Of a stretch of 64,000 nucleotides of DNA, positions 1,998-7,558 are shown piece after piece. Every line of letters starts with the position of its first letter. The first letter of the stretch is position 1. The position numbers and the translations under genes are program-made. The notes beneath the pieces were generated by a model, which searched no databases, had not been told where the DNA came from, and saw only the letters and a list, made by a program, of their open reading frames with translations. This DNA comes from Anaerolineales bacterium (GTDB taxonomy: Bacteria; Chloroflexota; Anaerolineae; Anaerolineales; E44-bin32). Location: NCBI GenBank assembly GCA_016927115.1, contig JAFGNH010000025.1, forward strand, positions 1 to 64,000. Reading direction: 5' to 3'.

Positions 1998-2783
1998 TTA
2001 TGGAACGATCAACTGCCCGTTGTTCGCTGCGGAAGGAATGTGTTCTGGCTTCTTTCCTCTGGCAAAAAAGGTGGGGACATAGAGGATTCTGGTTCCATCA
2101 AGCCATGCTTTTCGCTCCAGCTCAGCATAGAAGGTAGTTTCATCCGGAGAGAGAATCCCAGACAGATCAGAGATTAATGTCTCCCATTCAGAAGTAAACT
2201 CCGCTGGCAGTGAAAAATCCGTTGTCCATTCACCTCCGATCACACCTGTTTTAACAGAATTCAAACCGGAAACGGAGAGAAGGGAACGCAGTTTTCTTCC
2301 CAATTCAGGATCGCAGCCCTGTTTGCGGAGTGCGTCCTGTTGGAGCCCCCCCAGCGCTTCCAGTGGTGAGGGGTAATCGATTCTTCCCCCATAGTCAGGT
2401 TCTGCGAAGAGAATCAAAGACTTTCCGGGCTTCAATACACGGATCATCTCTTGGAGAGCTGTCTGTGGATTGTGCAGCCAGAGCAGCAGGAAGTGGCAGC
2501 AAACAAGATCAAAGCTGTCGGAAGGAAATGGAATCCTGAAAGCATCGGCGGAAATGTAGGATGGCCCTGGGGATACCTTCGTTGCCAATCGGATATCATC
2601 GAGCAGGATGTCTATCCCGAACACATTGCCAGGCAGTTCCATTGTAACAACGCCTGTGCCGCATCCGACATCCAGTGTTCGCTCCGGTACCGGCTGACAT
2701 TCAGCCAGCAGGTACTCACGTATCTGCTGTGTCCACACTGCTTGAGCCGTGTAGCGGCTATGTCGCCGATCAGGTGTATCCAT
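1998..2783 (-). CDS. class I SAM-dependent methyltransferase
   Basis: LDVGCGTGVVTMELP motif I; FDLVCCHFLLLWLHNP; MIRVLKPGKSLILFAEP. Confidence 0.85.
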   Translation of the reverse strand: MDTPDRRHSRYTAQAVWTQQIREYLLAECQPVPERTLDVGCGTGVVTMELPGNVFGIDILLDDIRLATKVSPGPSYISADAFRIPFPSDSFDLVCCHFLLLWLHNPQTALQEMIRVLKPGKSLILFAEPDYGGRIDYPSPLEALGGLQQDALRKQGCDPELGRKLRSLLSVSGLNSVKTGVIGGEWTTDFSLPAEFTSEWETLISDLSGILSPDETTFYAELERKAWLDGTRILYVPTFFARGKKPEHIPSAANNGQLIVP

Positions 2784-2858: not shown

Positions 2859-4016
2859 TCAGGATCGGGAGCATGCCTTCTGCCAGATGTCCTCCCATGG
2901 ATCACGCAGGATATTGCCAAGGATTTCATTAATCCCCTGTGTGGGAAGAACATCACCGTCTGGTTCAATATACAGCCAGGCCCGGCCAGCTCCCTGGGGC
3001 ACATCCTCCAATTCGATTGCGATTGGATTGGAGGAGGAGTAGGGTGCTGTAATATCCCAGATCAGATCCATTTCAAGTTGTGCTGCCATTTCACGGGCTT
3101 GCTCCAGAACCCGAATATACTCGGGTGAAGAATCCGTACTGGACAGAGATATGGCGGGGACACCCATGCCTTCAAGCAGGTGCAGCTGGCGATCAATATC
3201 CTCCCAGTTTGTATTGCTGATAGTGAGGTGGACTGCGGTAAAAATATCAGAAGCCAATGCCTGTTTGAGGCCTTCACGACTCTTCGTATCCTCCGGGAGC
3301 AGGACAACCAGCAGATGGTCCAGGCCGGCCTGGGCAAGCTGTTCGAGATAGTCCGGGTCTGCCAGGCGCTGCGCCTGGGTAAGAACACCGGTAACCTGTC
3401 CGAGGTCTTCAGCATGCTGGATCAGGGCTACCAGGTCGCTGCGACGCGTAGGTTCGCCGCCTGTGAAGACCACATGTGGAATACCGGCATCCCATGCGAG
3501 ATCCAGGACCCGTTTCCACTCTTCTGTGCTGAGGACACGATCGACGCGCTGGCGAGCAAGCGAATCAAGTATTCCATCAGGATCGAGCTCATAAGTTAGT
3601 GCAAGATCCAGCCTGTATGGAGCACTTGGAAGATGCGCGTAAGGCTCATTACGATCCAACCCCAGGAAGGTAACCGGGTCTACATCCGGGAAAGTTGCCA
3701 GGGTAACGATGCGCTGGCGGATGGTTTCCTGGTCGTGCTCTGATTCCTGCTTCGAAACACGATAGCGGCGGCTAACGGTCCTCGCCGCTGATTTTGTGTC
3801 CTGCCCCTGAACGATTTCATACGCATGTGCTGCAGCAGTCTGGTTCAGATGGAGGACAGTGGCAGCGTTAACGATCAGCAGTCCCTGCCCATCCTGTTCG
3901 ATGCGGAGGTGAAGTCGATAGGGGATGGTCGAATCGGGCGGTGCCTGGTAATGATAAACCCCAGGCTGGATTGGTTCCGGAGGGGCACCGAAAAGTTTAT
4001 CTAATATAAAGGCCAT
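2859..4016 (-). CDS. PqqD-like/radical SAM-fold protein lacking Fe-S cysteines (predicted pseudoenzyme)
   Basis: Collinear with the adjacent radical SAM/SPASM enzyme (PSAPYRLDLA-TY, GIPHVVFTGGEPTRRSDL, IEPDGDVLPTQ, GNIL-WEDIW) but the CxxxCxxC region reads ELDPDGIL and only one Cys exists (third from last codon region). Confidence 0.85.
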   Translation of the reverse strand: MAFILDKLFGAPPEPIQPGVYHYQAPPDSTIPYRLHLRIEQDGQGLLIVNAATVLHLNQTAAAHAYEIVQGQDTKSAARTVSRRYRVSKQESEHDQETIRQRIVTLATFPDVDPVTFLGLDRNEPYAHLPSAPYRLDLALTYELDPDGILDSLARQRVDRVLSTEEWKRVLDLAWDAGIPHVVFTGGEPTRRSDLVALIQHAEDLGQVTGVLTQAQRLADPDYLEQLAQAGLDHLLVVLLPEDTKSREGLKQALASDIFTAVHLTISNTNWEDIDRQLHLLEGMGVPAISLSSTDSSPEYIRVLEQAREMAAQLEMDLIWDITAPYSSSNPIAIELEDVPQGAGRAWLYIEPDGDVLPTQGINEILGNILRDPWEDIWQKACSRS

Positions 4017-4037
4017 TCAGGACTCCCTTCAACGTGG

Positions 4038-5414
4038 TCAGCTGTGGCTGACCAATTCTGTGATCGGTATTTGCGGCTGTATTGTTTTTAAGGCGAGCGG
4101 ACAGCCACCGCCGCACGTTGATAGCAGCTGACACTCATAGCAGGCTTCCGGCACGTATTTCCGATCGCGCAACCAGAGCGCCAGGTCATGGTTCCAGATT
4201 TCTTCCCATTGCTGTTCAAGGATATTTCCCATCGTGCTGTAGAAGGATTGGCAAGGAATCACGGAGCCATCTGGTTCCACACACATGTTGTAGCGTGCTG
4301 CTGTACAGCTTTTCACGCCCAGCTCCATCTGGACCGGATCAAAATGACAGTACTGAGTGGGGGTATACCACACCAGGCGCTGGCCATTCCGATCTATAGC
4401 TGTGCGTACCTGCTGAAGCAGATCGTGCAACTCCTCCTCATGAAGGCCGGATCCTACTTTTCGCCCCTTTCCGGAATAAATCAGGGAATTCAACCCAACC
4501 GTGGGGACGCCCAGCTCTGCCAGAAACTCGATAGTAGGAAGAATGGTGTGTTTATTCTCCGTGAGCAGTGTCGTGTTGGTCATCAGATATAAACCTGCCT
4601 TGATCGCACTTCGGATGCCCGCAACTGTCTCCTCCCACGCCCCCTTGCTGCGGACCATACGATCATGTATAGCAGCATCTGCTGATTCAAGTGTAATCTG
4701 GACATGGTCCAATCCTGCATCGATAAGTTCCTGCAGGTACACGGGATTGGAGAGGCGACGGCCGTTGGTAAGGAGGCCGGTTATCTGCCCTTGTTGCTGG
4801 GCATAGGCAATCAGCTGCGGTAAATCATCGCGAAGGGTTGCTTCTCCTCCCGTAAAGATGATATGTGGGATACCCTGATCCCAGGCGATCCGGATGACCT
4901 TTTTCCAGGAATCGGTATCCATCTCCGGGTATGATCTTGGGCGGGCGTTGTAGCAGTGGGCGCAGTCGTTATTACAGCGGTAAGTGACCGCCAGGTCCAG
5001 CCGATATGGTGCACTGGGTGACTGGCTGAAGGGCTGGAGGATTTCCAGATTGAGATCGTGGATGGGGCAGGCACCATCCGGCCGGATCAATTCCTCCACC
5101 AGTTCGGCTGTTCCTTTAAAGTCCCGGATGGCTGCATCAGCAGAAATCTTATACTTGTGTTTGATCCATTGAACGGCATCCTTGACTGAAAAACCTTCCA
5201 AATGCAGCCATGCCATGGAAGCTGCCGTCGGGTTGAGATGGTAGGCTTTTGCTGCGTCTACCAGCAGGAGTCCCTCTCCGGAAGGTTCAATCCGGAGGTG
5301 GACTTTGGCTTTACTGTCGGCGGATACACGATCGTAGCTGTGAGTACCGGCAGCTGGTGTGAGCTGCATCCGCCCGGGCGAAGAATTTTCCTTCTTCGCA
5401 AAGGGAAACTTCAT
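4038..5414 (-). CDS. radical SAM/SPASM protein with N-terminal PqqD-like (RRE-type) domain
   Basis: AVTYRCNNDCAHCYN (CxxxCxxC), FTGGEATLRDDL, SPASM cysteines CTAARYNMCVEPDGSVIPCQSF...CYECQLLSTCGGGCP; start chosen at MKFPFAKK (5414), overlapping the upstream stop as ATGA; the ORF-track extension to 5471 is antisense-like coding overlap. Confidence 0.92.
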   Translation of the reverse strand: MKFPFAKKENSSPGRMQLTPAAGTHSYDRVSADSKAKVHLRIEPSGEGLLLVDAAKAYHLNPTAASMAWLHLEGFSVKDAVQWIKHKYKISADAAIRDFKGTAELVEELIRPDGACPIHDLNLEILQPFSQSPSAPYRLDLAVTYRCNNDCAHCYNARPRSYPEMDTDSWKKVIRIAWDQGIPHIIFTGGEATLRDDLPQLIAYAQQQGQITGLLTNGRRLSNPVYLQELIDAGLDHVQITLESADAAIHDRMVRSKGAWEETVAGIRSAIKAGLYLMTNTTLLTENKHTILPTIEFLAELGVPTVGLNSLIYSGKGRKVGSGLHEEELHDLLQQVRTAIDRNGQRLVWYTPTQYCHFDPVQMELGVKSCTAARYNMCVEPDGSVIPCQSFYSTMGNILEQQWEEIWNHDLALWLRDRKYVPEACYECQLLSTCGGGCPLALKTIQPQIPITELVSHS

Positions 5415-7111
5415 CGACCGCCTCCAGCACAGGCGCAGGCACAGCCTGCGCATGCACAGGCACATGCACAACTGCTGCCACCACCACCGCCACTGCTTCG
5501 ATACCCCCCAGAGGAGGTTTTGGGTACGGGATTGGTCTTCTTGGTGATGCCGTTGGTGAAGTTCGTCAGATTGGATACGATATTGCCGGCGGTGTTCTGG
5601 ACCCCACCGACAACAGAAGCTGCAAATGCGGATCCTGGCAGTGTGGGTAGATTAACTCGGCCACCCATACCTGTGGATGCAGTGACCGAACCGGGAGTGC
5701 TGGACTTGCCGCCACCGGCTCCACCGATGGAACTTGTACCTCCACGGTACGATGGCCGGAAGGCTCCCCACCACATCGGCACGTAGACCGGGCCTGTACG
5801 GAAGGTTTTTTCTGTGCGATCTGCAAAATCGCGGTCGAGCATGGTCCATTCAAGTGTATCTGCGTAGCGCTCTGAACGTACTTCAGGGGTCTCCGCATTT
5901 TCCACCATTTCCCAGGCTTTATCTACAATAGACTGATAATATTTTTTGGTTTCCTTAAGGCTGAAGCCTTTCATTTTCTTCTGAACTGACTTGATCGTCG
6001 TTGTAAACATGGCTTGAAGCGCCACGTCTCTACTTACCTTTTTCTCATTAACTATGGCGTCCAGGAATTCCTTTTCATATGTTCGTAAATCTTCAGGGAT
6101 AGTATCGGTTTTCTCTACTTTCAGTGGATCTTCCGATACAACGCGAGCGGCACCCTTTTTAACCAGACTGAAAAGGATCATCGTCAGGATGGTATTCAGA
6201 GGTTTTTCAAGCAGAATGGCTGATTCTACTGCAGTCAAGCCACGTTTGATGCCGTGGCCTTCAATTGCGATTTTCGGGGGAAGGTACTGCATTCGTCGTT
6301 TTCGGTCAGCCCTGACGGCCAGAGTGATAAAGCCGATGATCAACAGGAAGAATCCAGAAAAGCAGCAGAGAGCAGTAAGTGCATCAGAGTCTAGTCCGAG
6401 TCGCTGGCTGACAGTTGGTGTCTGGATATTCGCACTGGGAACAACGGCCATCGGAAAAGAAGCGCCGAAAACGTAGGGTGTGTAGGCATTGCCGGTTTGG
6501 TTGCGCCAGACATACAGCACGCGCCCATCCCCATCAAATCCAGTAACCGGCTCAGATTGCGGCCAACCTTTTGGAGGATCAAAATAGAACGGCTCCTCTG
6601 GCTCGATACCTGGAGGGAGGTGGAAGGATACTGTTAGATCAGTTGTGCCGGAAACATATTCCTCTCCAAACCAGGTGGGAGCGAACATGACACTGGCGTA
6701 GTCCTTCTGATCGGCAGTGTACAGCATATCCTGAATTCCGGTAGCGGTCATCGTGACGGTGCCGGTTTGTCCTGGTTGGATGGCGTTTGCGCCCAGACCG
6801 AGCTCGATGCCGTCCACATAAGCCGAATAGGCAATATGGGATATTGTGTTCCCGTTGACCTGGGCTGAGATACTGTTGAGGCTGTAATTTTCAGTGGGCA
6901 TGCCCACGTCAATGTAATCGATCGGGTCTGCCCAGGTATTGTTGGTGAAAACTAACACATAGTCCAACCGGGCAGAGCCATCAGTTTCGATATAAAGGTC
7001 TACCCGCAATTCATCCAGGCTGAATGAGTATGTTTGTGCGAACACAGGCATACTTGCAGGCAGAAAGAGTAAGAGGACAACAATTACGCTGAGGATCAAT
7101 TTTCTGACCAT
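5411..7111 (-). CDS. DUF2207-like membrane protein with Cys-Ala-rich C-terminal tail
   Basis: Signal peptide, predicted DUF2207-type extracellular domain (LRVDLYIETDGSARLDYVLVFTN), TM segments, Gly-rich linker, tail SSCACACACAGCACACAGGGR. Confidence 0.8.
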   Translation of the reverse strand: MVRKLILSVIVVLLLFLPASMPVFAQTYSFSLDELRVDLYIETDGSARLDYVLVFTNNTWADPIDYIDVGMPTENYSLNSISAQVNGNTISHIAYSAYVDGIELGLGANAIQPGQTGTVTMTATGIQDMLYTADQKDYASVMFAPTWFGEEYVSGTTDLTVSFHLPPGIEPEEPFYFDPPKGWPQSEPVTGFDGDGRVLYVWRNQTGNAYTPYVFGASFPMAVVPSANIQTPTVSQRLGLDSDALTALCCFSGFFLLIIGFITLAVRADRKRRMQYLPPKIAIEGHGIKRGLTAVESAILLEKPLNTILTMILFSLVKKGAARVVSEDPLKVEKTDTIPEDLRTYEKEFLDAIVNEKKVSRDVALQAMFTTTIKSVQKKMKGFSLKETKKYYQSIVDKAWEMVENAETPEVRSERYADTLEWTMLDRDFADRTEKTFRTGPVYVPMWWGAFRPSYRGGTSSIGGAGGGKSSTPGSVTASTGMGGRVNLPTLPGSAFAASVVGGVQNTAGNIVSNLTNFTNGITKKTNPVPKTSSGGYRSSGGGGGSSCACACACAGCACACAGGGR

Positions 7112-7177
7112 AAGATCTCCTGATAGAAAAAACCAGCTCCGGCAGAAAGGAAGCCGCTGCCGGGATACTGAATCAAG

Positions 7178-7558
7178 TTACCATTTTGGCTCTTCGGTGA
7201 GCTGGTAGCTGGAACCGCAGTAGGGGCAGTTGACTACCGGAGCTCCCGCCAGCATGGTTATATGTTCACTGCTTAAAGTCCCCCCGCAGCTTTTGCAGGT
7301 CATGGTTTCCAGATTTACATCCCCAGAAAGTTCAATCTGTTGTGTAATCTGGACCTGTTGCTTTTCTGCCTTGGCTTTCCTGCCGACAAGCCAGATAGTT
7401 ACAAATCCAACTAACAGTAAGACAATACCCACCAGGATATTGCCGATATTTCCATTTTCACCGAATGCTGCAAGAACAAAAAGCACACCAAACAGAATCA
7501 CAATGGCGGCAAAAATATTAGCAATCAATTTTCCAGCAGACATTCCTCCTCCTGACAT
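7178..7558 (-). CDS. small membrane protein with C-terminal zinc ribbon
   Basis: Two hydrophobic segments then CKSCGGTL...CPYCGSSY. Confidence 0.75.
   Translation of the reverse strand: MSGGGMSAGKLIANIFAAIVILFGVLFVLAAFGENGNIGNILVGIVLLLVGFVTIWLVGRKAKAEKQQVQITQQIELSGDVNLETMTCKSCGGTLSSEHITMLAGAPVVNCPYCGSSYQLTEEPKW

Follow-up and report, generated by a model that had tools for sequence, protein, structure and literature searches.

Radical S-adenosylmethionine (SAM) enzymes with a SPASM domain are known mainly as builders of small natural products. QhpD, one such enzyme, makes thioether crosslinks in QhpC, a small periplasmic subunit of quinohemoprotein amine dehydrogenase, and the ACGX and Cys-every-fifth families of NCBIfam comprise regular Cys repeats adjoining radical SAM-SPASM enzymes, with small peptides as substrates. 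Thioethers from Cys to the alpha carbon of Ala, made by radical SAM enzymes, have a precedent in ruminococcin C (PMC8188230). In 2025, TIGR04222 membrane proteins with Cys-rich tails, predicted to lie outside the cell, were proposed as substrates of MNIO enzymes, which is a precedent for the idea that a full-size membrane protein with a Cys-rich tail serves as a substrate of the type known from ribosomally synthesized and post-translationally modified peptides (RiPPs) (PMC12452194). Here we describe a cassette in a 64,000-nucleotide stretch of DNA from an Anaerolineales bacterium (GCA_016927115.1, contig JAFGNH010000025.1, positions 1 to 64,000), the whole of which we call the window; its source is a 4.8 Mb draft genome of the Chloroflexota, in which it belongs to contig C16 of 204. 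The cassette lies on the minus strand and encodes, in order of transcription, a zinc-ribbon protein, a membrane protein (the scaffold), a radical SAM enzyme, a degenerate paralog of that enzyme and a methyltransferase. We consider that it probably specifies a protein-modification system built in the manner of a RiPP pathway, with an integral membrane protein as the substrate, the tail of which is modified by the radical SAM enzyme. The first four genes had been proposed in an original prediction for this DNA, and all four were recovered at the positions and on the strand given there.

The Cys-Ala tail and the radical SAM-SPASM enzyme

The features on which the argument turns are as follows.

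5411..7111 (-), DUF2207-like membrane protein (566 amino acids, aa), the proposed substrate scaffold
5414..5470 (-), tail CACACACAGCACACAGGGR, residues 548-566, the proposed modification site, based on alignment invariance and synonymous codon variation
5411..5414 (-), ATGA overlap of the membrane-protein stop and the enzyme start, in the sequence ...GGTCGATGAAGTTT...
4038..5414 (-), PqqD-radical SAM-SPASM enzyme (458 aa), the proposed tail modifier
5085..5348 (-), N-terminal PqqD-like RiPP recognition element of the enzyme, residues ~23-110, based on homologue profiles and the structural model
4953..4976 (-), radical SAM motif CNNDCAHC (C147, C151, C154), invariant in the enzyme alignment
4101..4307 (-), SPASM region with C370, C388 and CX2CX5CX3C (C425, C428, C434, C438), all invariant

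In many bacteria and some Asgard archaea the membrane protein ends in a near letter-perfect Cys-Ala repeat, CACACAGCACACAGGGR; the C-terminus of the window protein is GGGGGSSCACACACAGCACACAGGGR, ending in SSCACACACAGCACACAGGGR. When 40 scaffolds from bacteria and Asgard archaea, 30-62% identical to the window protein, were aligned, 22 columns were invariant, and 14 of these fell within the last 17 residues. Among 85 scaffolds of at least 400 aa selected by homology, 80 ended in GCACACA(CA)nGGGR and the other five were cut, frameshifted or contained N's, indicating that the tail is not a product of chance. Synonymous codons within the tail vary freely, the final Arg being written with all six of its codons, and selection therefore acts on the peptide. 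The invariance of the last tail positions in the codon counts arises partly by construction, the filter having required GGGR; the unbiased figures are those from the homology-selected proteins and from a DNA filter that asked only for CACAGCACA. Apart from Cys and the final Arg, no residue with a reactive side chain is fixed in every tail. We make no claim that the number of repeats is read by the enzyme, since the split between G(CA)3 and G(CA)4 fits the clades of the enzyme tree poorly.

The scaffold consists of a signal peptide, a beta ectodomain (residues 30-226), a transmembrane segment (242-276), a basic stretch (RADRKRRMQ) and a helical, winged-helix-like part, followed by Gly/Ser linkers, an amphipathic helix and the disordered tail. 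In its AlphaFold2 model (mean predicted local distance difference test score, pLDDT, 83) residues 532-566 are disordered. From the single transmembrane helix after the signal peptide, we place the tail with good confidence in the cytosol, where it would be within reach of the radical SAM enzyme. The ATGA overlap between the two genes points to translational coupling.

Both the CxxxCxxC motif and the SPASM cysteines that define radical SAM-SPASM enzymes are present in the window enzyme, which scores 103 bits with Radical_SAM (PF04055) and 42 bits with SPASM (PF13186). Across 17 diverse homologues, CNNDCAHC, C370, C388 and CX2CX5CX3C are all invariant and PF13186 is found in 17/17; two auxiliary clusters are expected in the SPASM region. 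The N-terminal PqqD-like domain that had been predicted holds for the family, in which 15 of the 17 homologues match PqqD (best 4.1e-6), while the window protein by itself, at 18.5 bits, falls below the cut-off of 23.4. A search of the window's own genome with PF05402 gave no match because single members score under the threshold, a discrepancy resolved by the scan of the 17 members. In the AlphaFold2 model of the enzyme (pLDDT 85, predicted template-modelling score 0.87), residues 23-110 form four strands and three helices.

Linkage of tail and enzyme across genomes

At the level of the order, 93 of 151 genomes contained the enzyme and 93 the scaffold; 91 contained both, 56 neither, and two plus two only one partner, which in these four genomes was found only as pieces on short contigs. 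At the level of the phylum, the tail pattern was present in 20 of 301 Chloroflexota genomes and the enzyme in 21, with both in 20, and a control with the reversed pattern returned zero. The original prediction would have been undermined by orthologous enzymes found mostly without a Cys-tailed neighbour, a check that was run and favoured it: the tail is present in 84 of the 93 order-level enzyme loci, and most of the others are cut contigs. The co-occurrence also holds phylum-wide, with 20 of 21 enzyme genomes holding the tail, and the odd one carries a sister enzyme beside another Cys-repeat tail. Genome G274, considered as a case of an enzyme without a tail, was rejected as such, as its sister enzyme lies beside a related scaffold ending in CHSACHSACHSACVHDACHSAC...

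The linkage was also approached from the tail, by scanning GTDB genomes with the DNA pattern CACAGCACA, independently of the enzyme, which gave at least 80 loci. Among the matches listed, 70 of 80 loci were C-terminal tails of the same scaffold, all 70 ending in (CA)nG(CA)nGGGR; the enzyme lay at most 3.5 kb from the tail in 56 of the 70 and elsewhere in the genome for 12 of the 14 others, and it was held by 68 of the 70 genomes. The remaining two tails were on short contigs, about at the edge, and we therefore do not regard any of the 14 as real solitary tails. The carriers in the same list are the Anaerolineae and other Chloroflexota, Pirellulales, Armatimonadetes, Acidobacteriota, Aminicenantes, Zixibacteria, Coatesbacteria, Fermentibacteria/Hyd24-12, Edwardsbacteria, Hodarchaeota, Heimdallarchaeota and Sigynarchaeota, most of them metagenome bins, in which single cases may be mis-binned. 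Relatives named in the scan are Anaerolineales and other Anaerolineae.

Across these lineages the scaffold gene may precede or follow the enzyme gene, and the flanking genes are varied. This bears on the idea that the pairing is mere hitch-hiking with no functional link, since neighbouring genes can persist together by descent within an order. Linkage across many phyla and two domains, with gene orders and flanks that differ, and its recurrence in a second tail family argue against that idea; the co-occurrence brings it close to refutation, and we consider it extremely improbable.

Two variant arrangements were observed. Loci L189, L223, L225, L205, L097 and L120 share a second gene order (zinc ribbon, long enzyme, a partly degenerate second radical SAM protein with SPASM cysteines, scaffold, methyltransferase) and have complete tails with four CA units in the last block. 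In the order family f8 (L105, L112, L119, L125, L139, L143, L148, L163 and others), an enzyme of ~540 aa bears its own GGGGCSGCSGSCGTGG after the SPASM region and adjoins a tail-less scaffold relative of 290-340 aa, and the CA-tailed scaffold sits with the paralog. Here the enzyme seems to have been replaced by one from another clade that carries a cysteine motif in cis.

The second tail family, CHSAC, was found in 21 of 150 genomes of the class of G274, and its tail gene lies directly before a PqqD-SPASM enzyme gene in 19 of 22 loci; two of the others are interrupted by the ends of contigs, and L347 alone is a true exception. The CHSAC enzymes form a single, fully supported branch of the enzyme tree, and the enzyme clades match the two kinds of tail. 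The ACGX enzyme model matches the CHSAC enzyme at 97 bits, far under its cut-off of 400. At several Chloroflexota loci (L292, 8090-9808; L293, 2646-5794; L297-L298; L327-L350) a DUF2207 protein ends in a conserved CHSACHSACHSACVHDACHSAC...VSRF repeat; its own PqqD-SPASM enzyme is encoded directly after it, and then come genes for a coiled-coil protein and a zinc-ribbon protein with two transmembrane segments. Near the CHSAC system, DUF2207-like proteins at L349 (12593-14575) and L350 (11576-13462) end in an uninterrupted Gly run that contains no Cys; they are an unmodified-looking cousin of the tailed scaffolds and could serve as a control.

The CHSAC scaffold also bears on the family to which the window scaffold belongs. 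The window protein is best labelled DUF2207-like, as it reaches 18 bits with PF20990, under the Pfam cut-off of 33; since the CHSAC scaffold passes PF09972 (25.5 vs 24.4 bits), the window scaffold is a distant relative of DUF2207. Membership in TIGR04222 was rejected: the window scaffold gave no match and 0 of 101 relatives scored above the cut-off of 43 bits, with matches in 3 of 40 window-type scaffolds (best 0.0015) and 34 bits for the CHSAC scaffold. A sequence search of solved structures with the scaffold found no match, and no function can be drawn from the fold search, whose matches, to M1 aminopeptidases and ribophorin I/Ost1 (template-modelling scores ~0.25), were generic beta-sandwiches and nothing more.

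Proposed modification of the tail

The linkage obtained by starting from the tail, the co-occurrence, the invariance of the tail, the PqqD-like domains, the peptide-modifying fold neighbours described below and the sister clade together make it very likely that the tail is the substrate of the enzyme, i.e., that it is modified by it. Several points weigh against this reading. The phylum co-occurrence has a Fisher value of 2.6e-30, but such p-values ignore the kinship of the genomes. The f8 enzyme is of a different, longer clade and sits apart from the tail gene, adjoining the tail-less relative, so the pairing is not rigid. At L347 (G490), a CHSAC-clade enzyme has no tail gene beside it, only a coiled-coil gene following. 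Because scaffold and tail diverge together, the match between enzyme clades and kinds of tail does not point to the tail specifically. Finally, similarity among SPASM enzymes does not fix the reaction, as PqqE and SuiB make C-C bonds.

The tail could instead be an unmodified Cys array that binds a metal or cluster or acts as a redox switch, the enzyme working elsewhere in the pathway. Soft metals would be bound by Cys in alternate positions, a neighbouring gene encodes a zinc-ribbon membrane protein, and in Streptococcus mutans tolerance of acid and peroxide falls when a DUF2207 gene is deleted (PMC10457818), which is no more than a hint at a role; that the system serves in stress or with metals is a guess only. 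However, the enzyme bears a PqqD-like recognition domain, has no other conserved partner in all lineages and accompanies the tail gene in lineages as distant as Asgard archaea and Chloroflexota, and metal sites seldom require every Ala, Gly and the final Arg to be fixed, making an unmodified array unlikely.

If the tail is modified, the beta ectodomain of the inserted scaffold would face outward, and the long C-terminal part, with (CA)nG(CA)nGGGR at its end, would lie in the cytosol. The enzyme would dock on the scaffold through its PqqD-like domain, probably aided by the degenerate paralog bearing the same domain, and the radical SAM and SPASM clusters would oxidize the tail, abstracting hydrogens along it. 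Cys sulfur would then most likely be joined to alpha carbons of Ala or Gly in sactionine-like thioethers. In this way a flexible repeat would become a rigid cap, possibly metal- or redox-active, on the inner side of the membrane, and the methyltransferase may add a second modification.

Cys-to-alpha-carbon thioethers are our best guess for these bonds, at roughly even chances. The nearest solved folds to the enzyme model are SkfB (6efn), SuiB (5v1t, also with precursor peptide), PqqE (6c8v) and CteB (5why), with the epimerase EpeE among the weaker matches, and the best sequence match in the PDB is SkfB (1e-29). The enzyme does not reach the curated NCBIfam maturase models, either for PqqE (128 bits, cut-off 381) or for the sactipeptide maturases SkfB (73 vs 300), AlbA (67 vs 850) and StsB (85 vs 625). 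Another chemistry on the same tail, such as alanine epimerization, C-C or C-N crosslinks or cysteine oxidation, is possible though rather unlikely: SPASM enzymes perform all of these reactions, the neighbours include SuiB, PqqE and EpeE, and the alternating residues resemble substrates of radical epimerases, but Cys and the final Arg alone supply fixed reactive side chains, and the best match by both sequence and fold is a sactipeptide maturase, with the thioether-former CteB also matched.

A gene for a short precursor peptide was not seen in the loci examined, and the sole conserved Cys-rich partner is the full-size membrane protein. Thus, while the PqqD-like element of RiPP systems is present in the homologues, the short precursor is not, and the system is RiPP-like in its working with one RiPP feature missing. 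A C-terminal core with a recognition region upstream is how RiPP precursors are arranged, and the membrane protein could accordingly be a giant leader, from which a modified tail is cleaved and released as a small natural product. We regard this as very doubtful, since no peptidase or exporter is encoded beside the window cassette and none is obvious in the Asgard slices, the tail is near-constant across phyla, unlike antibiotics, and the scaffold has a conserved ectodomain of its own. On balance we lean toward a new cross-domain modification of an integral membrane protein. In this reading a dedicated radical SAM enzyme, accompanied by a pseudo-enzyme and a methyltransferase, would crosslink a near-universal Cys-Ala tail into a new thioether or redox or metal motif at the cytosolic face; the modification would be common to many bacterial phyla and Asgard archaea, and would have at least one counterpart, the CHSAC system. 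Conservation of the tail to the letter between Chloroflexota and Asgard archaea suggests a basic role in the cell, not an antibiotic. The pair would give the widespread, uncharacterized DUF2207/TIGR04222 proteins a testable biochemistry, and cultured members, e.g., Ornatilinea apprima and Leptolinea, make the system testable.

Accessory genes and comparison with known systems

The other genes of the window cassette are the following.

7178..7558 (-), small protein (126 aa) with two transmembrane helices (residues 11-29 and 41-59), then a C4 zinc ribbon, and C-terminus PKW
2859..4016 (-), degenerate radical SAM paralog (385 aa), PqqD-like domain kept, iron-sulfur cysteines gone
1998..2783 (-), class I SAM-dependent methyltransferase (261 aa), probable accessory modifier (Methyltransf_11 1e-20)

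On one side the cassette is flanked by a formate-tetrahydrofolate ligase (FTHFS) gene, and on the other by genes for two lipid enzymes, a CDP-alcohol phosphatidyltransferase and an acyltransferase; among the flanking genes identified beside the cassette there was no peptidase, exporter or MNIO gene. The original prediction had closed the cassette at a terminator after the paralog. A stem-loop is present at ~2819-2805, but it is ordinary, such matches being no commoner than in shuffled sequence, and the cassette does not end there, as the methyltransferase gene, missing from that prediction, follows and travels with the system.

In the order-level set, the 93 enzyme loci contained the tail in 84, the zinc-ribbon gene in 79, the paralog in 78 and the methyltransferase in 62, counts that are lower bounds because many contigs are short. 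The zinc-ribbon protein is usually encoded by the first gene of the cassette, and a zinc-ribbon gene with two transmembrane segments also adjoins the CHSAC system. Its C-terminus is PKW in eight of nine diverse members and PVW in the one from Sigynarchaeota. The methyltransferase gene adjoins the enzyme gene in Hodarchaeota, Heimdallarchaeota and Sigynarchaeota as well, and in Asgard loci L351 and L203 it stays with the enzyme though the scaffold is on another contig. Since the three Asgard slices in which the enzyme lies beside the scaffold yielded no paralog, the early core of the system seems to have comprised the scaffold, the enzyme and the methyltransferase.

The paralog keeps the radical SAM fold (41 bits), and PqqD matches 12 of 14 members (best 1.5e-8). 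It had been described as cysteine-less; one stray Cys remains, but CxxxCxxC and every SPASM cysteine are gone, and there is no Cys among the invariant columns of the 14-member alignment. It is probably a substrate-binding or scaffold partner. In this it resembles the TIGR04347 pseudo-SAM/SPASM protein of haloarchaea, likewise a radical SAM fold kept as a partner after loss of the iron-sulfur cysteines, although the window paralog reaches only 45 bits with that model (cut-off 525).

The claim that the system is undescribed agrees with our searches. No NCBIfam or Pfam model was found for the pair, neither the scaffold nor the enzyme reaches a curated model of a described system, and no paper describing the pair was found in literature on DUF2207/radical SAM, Anaerolinea/SPASM, Asgard radical SAM RiPPs, CHSAC and CACACAG, which covered mostly non-subscription journals, so that an unpublished or paywalled description is possible. 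The closest known systems each share part of the arrangement. As in QhpD/QhpC, a SPASM enzyme would modify part of a working protein and not a natural product, with a different substrate family. As in the ACGX and Cys-every-fifth systems, a Cys repeat lies beside a SPASM enzyme, the substrates there being small peptides. The sactipeptide and ranthipeptide systems (SkfB, AlbA, CteB/SCIFF, RumMC) combine PqqD-like, radical SAM and SPASM domains with a Cys-rich substrate, and SkfB is the nearest solved structure to the window enzyme; in contrast, the proposed window substrate is a 566-aa membrane protein and not a short peptide, and no peptidase or exporter was seen beside the cassette. The TIGR04222/MNIO (DUF692) systems likewise have a full-size membrane protein with a low-complexity Gly/Ser tail containing Cys, encoded beside a peptide-modifying iron enzyme, and the scaffolds are distantly related by sequence. 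They differ from the window system, in which the curated 43-bit cut-off is missed, the identified neighbours are not MNIO, the enzyme is of the PqqD-radical SAM-SPASM type, and the tail is a fixed Cys-Ala repeat predicted to be cytosolic and not periplasmic. This comparison suggests that Cys-tailed membrane proteins have recruited modifying enzymes of two unrelated kinds, MNIO and radical SAM.

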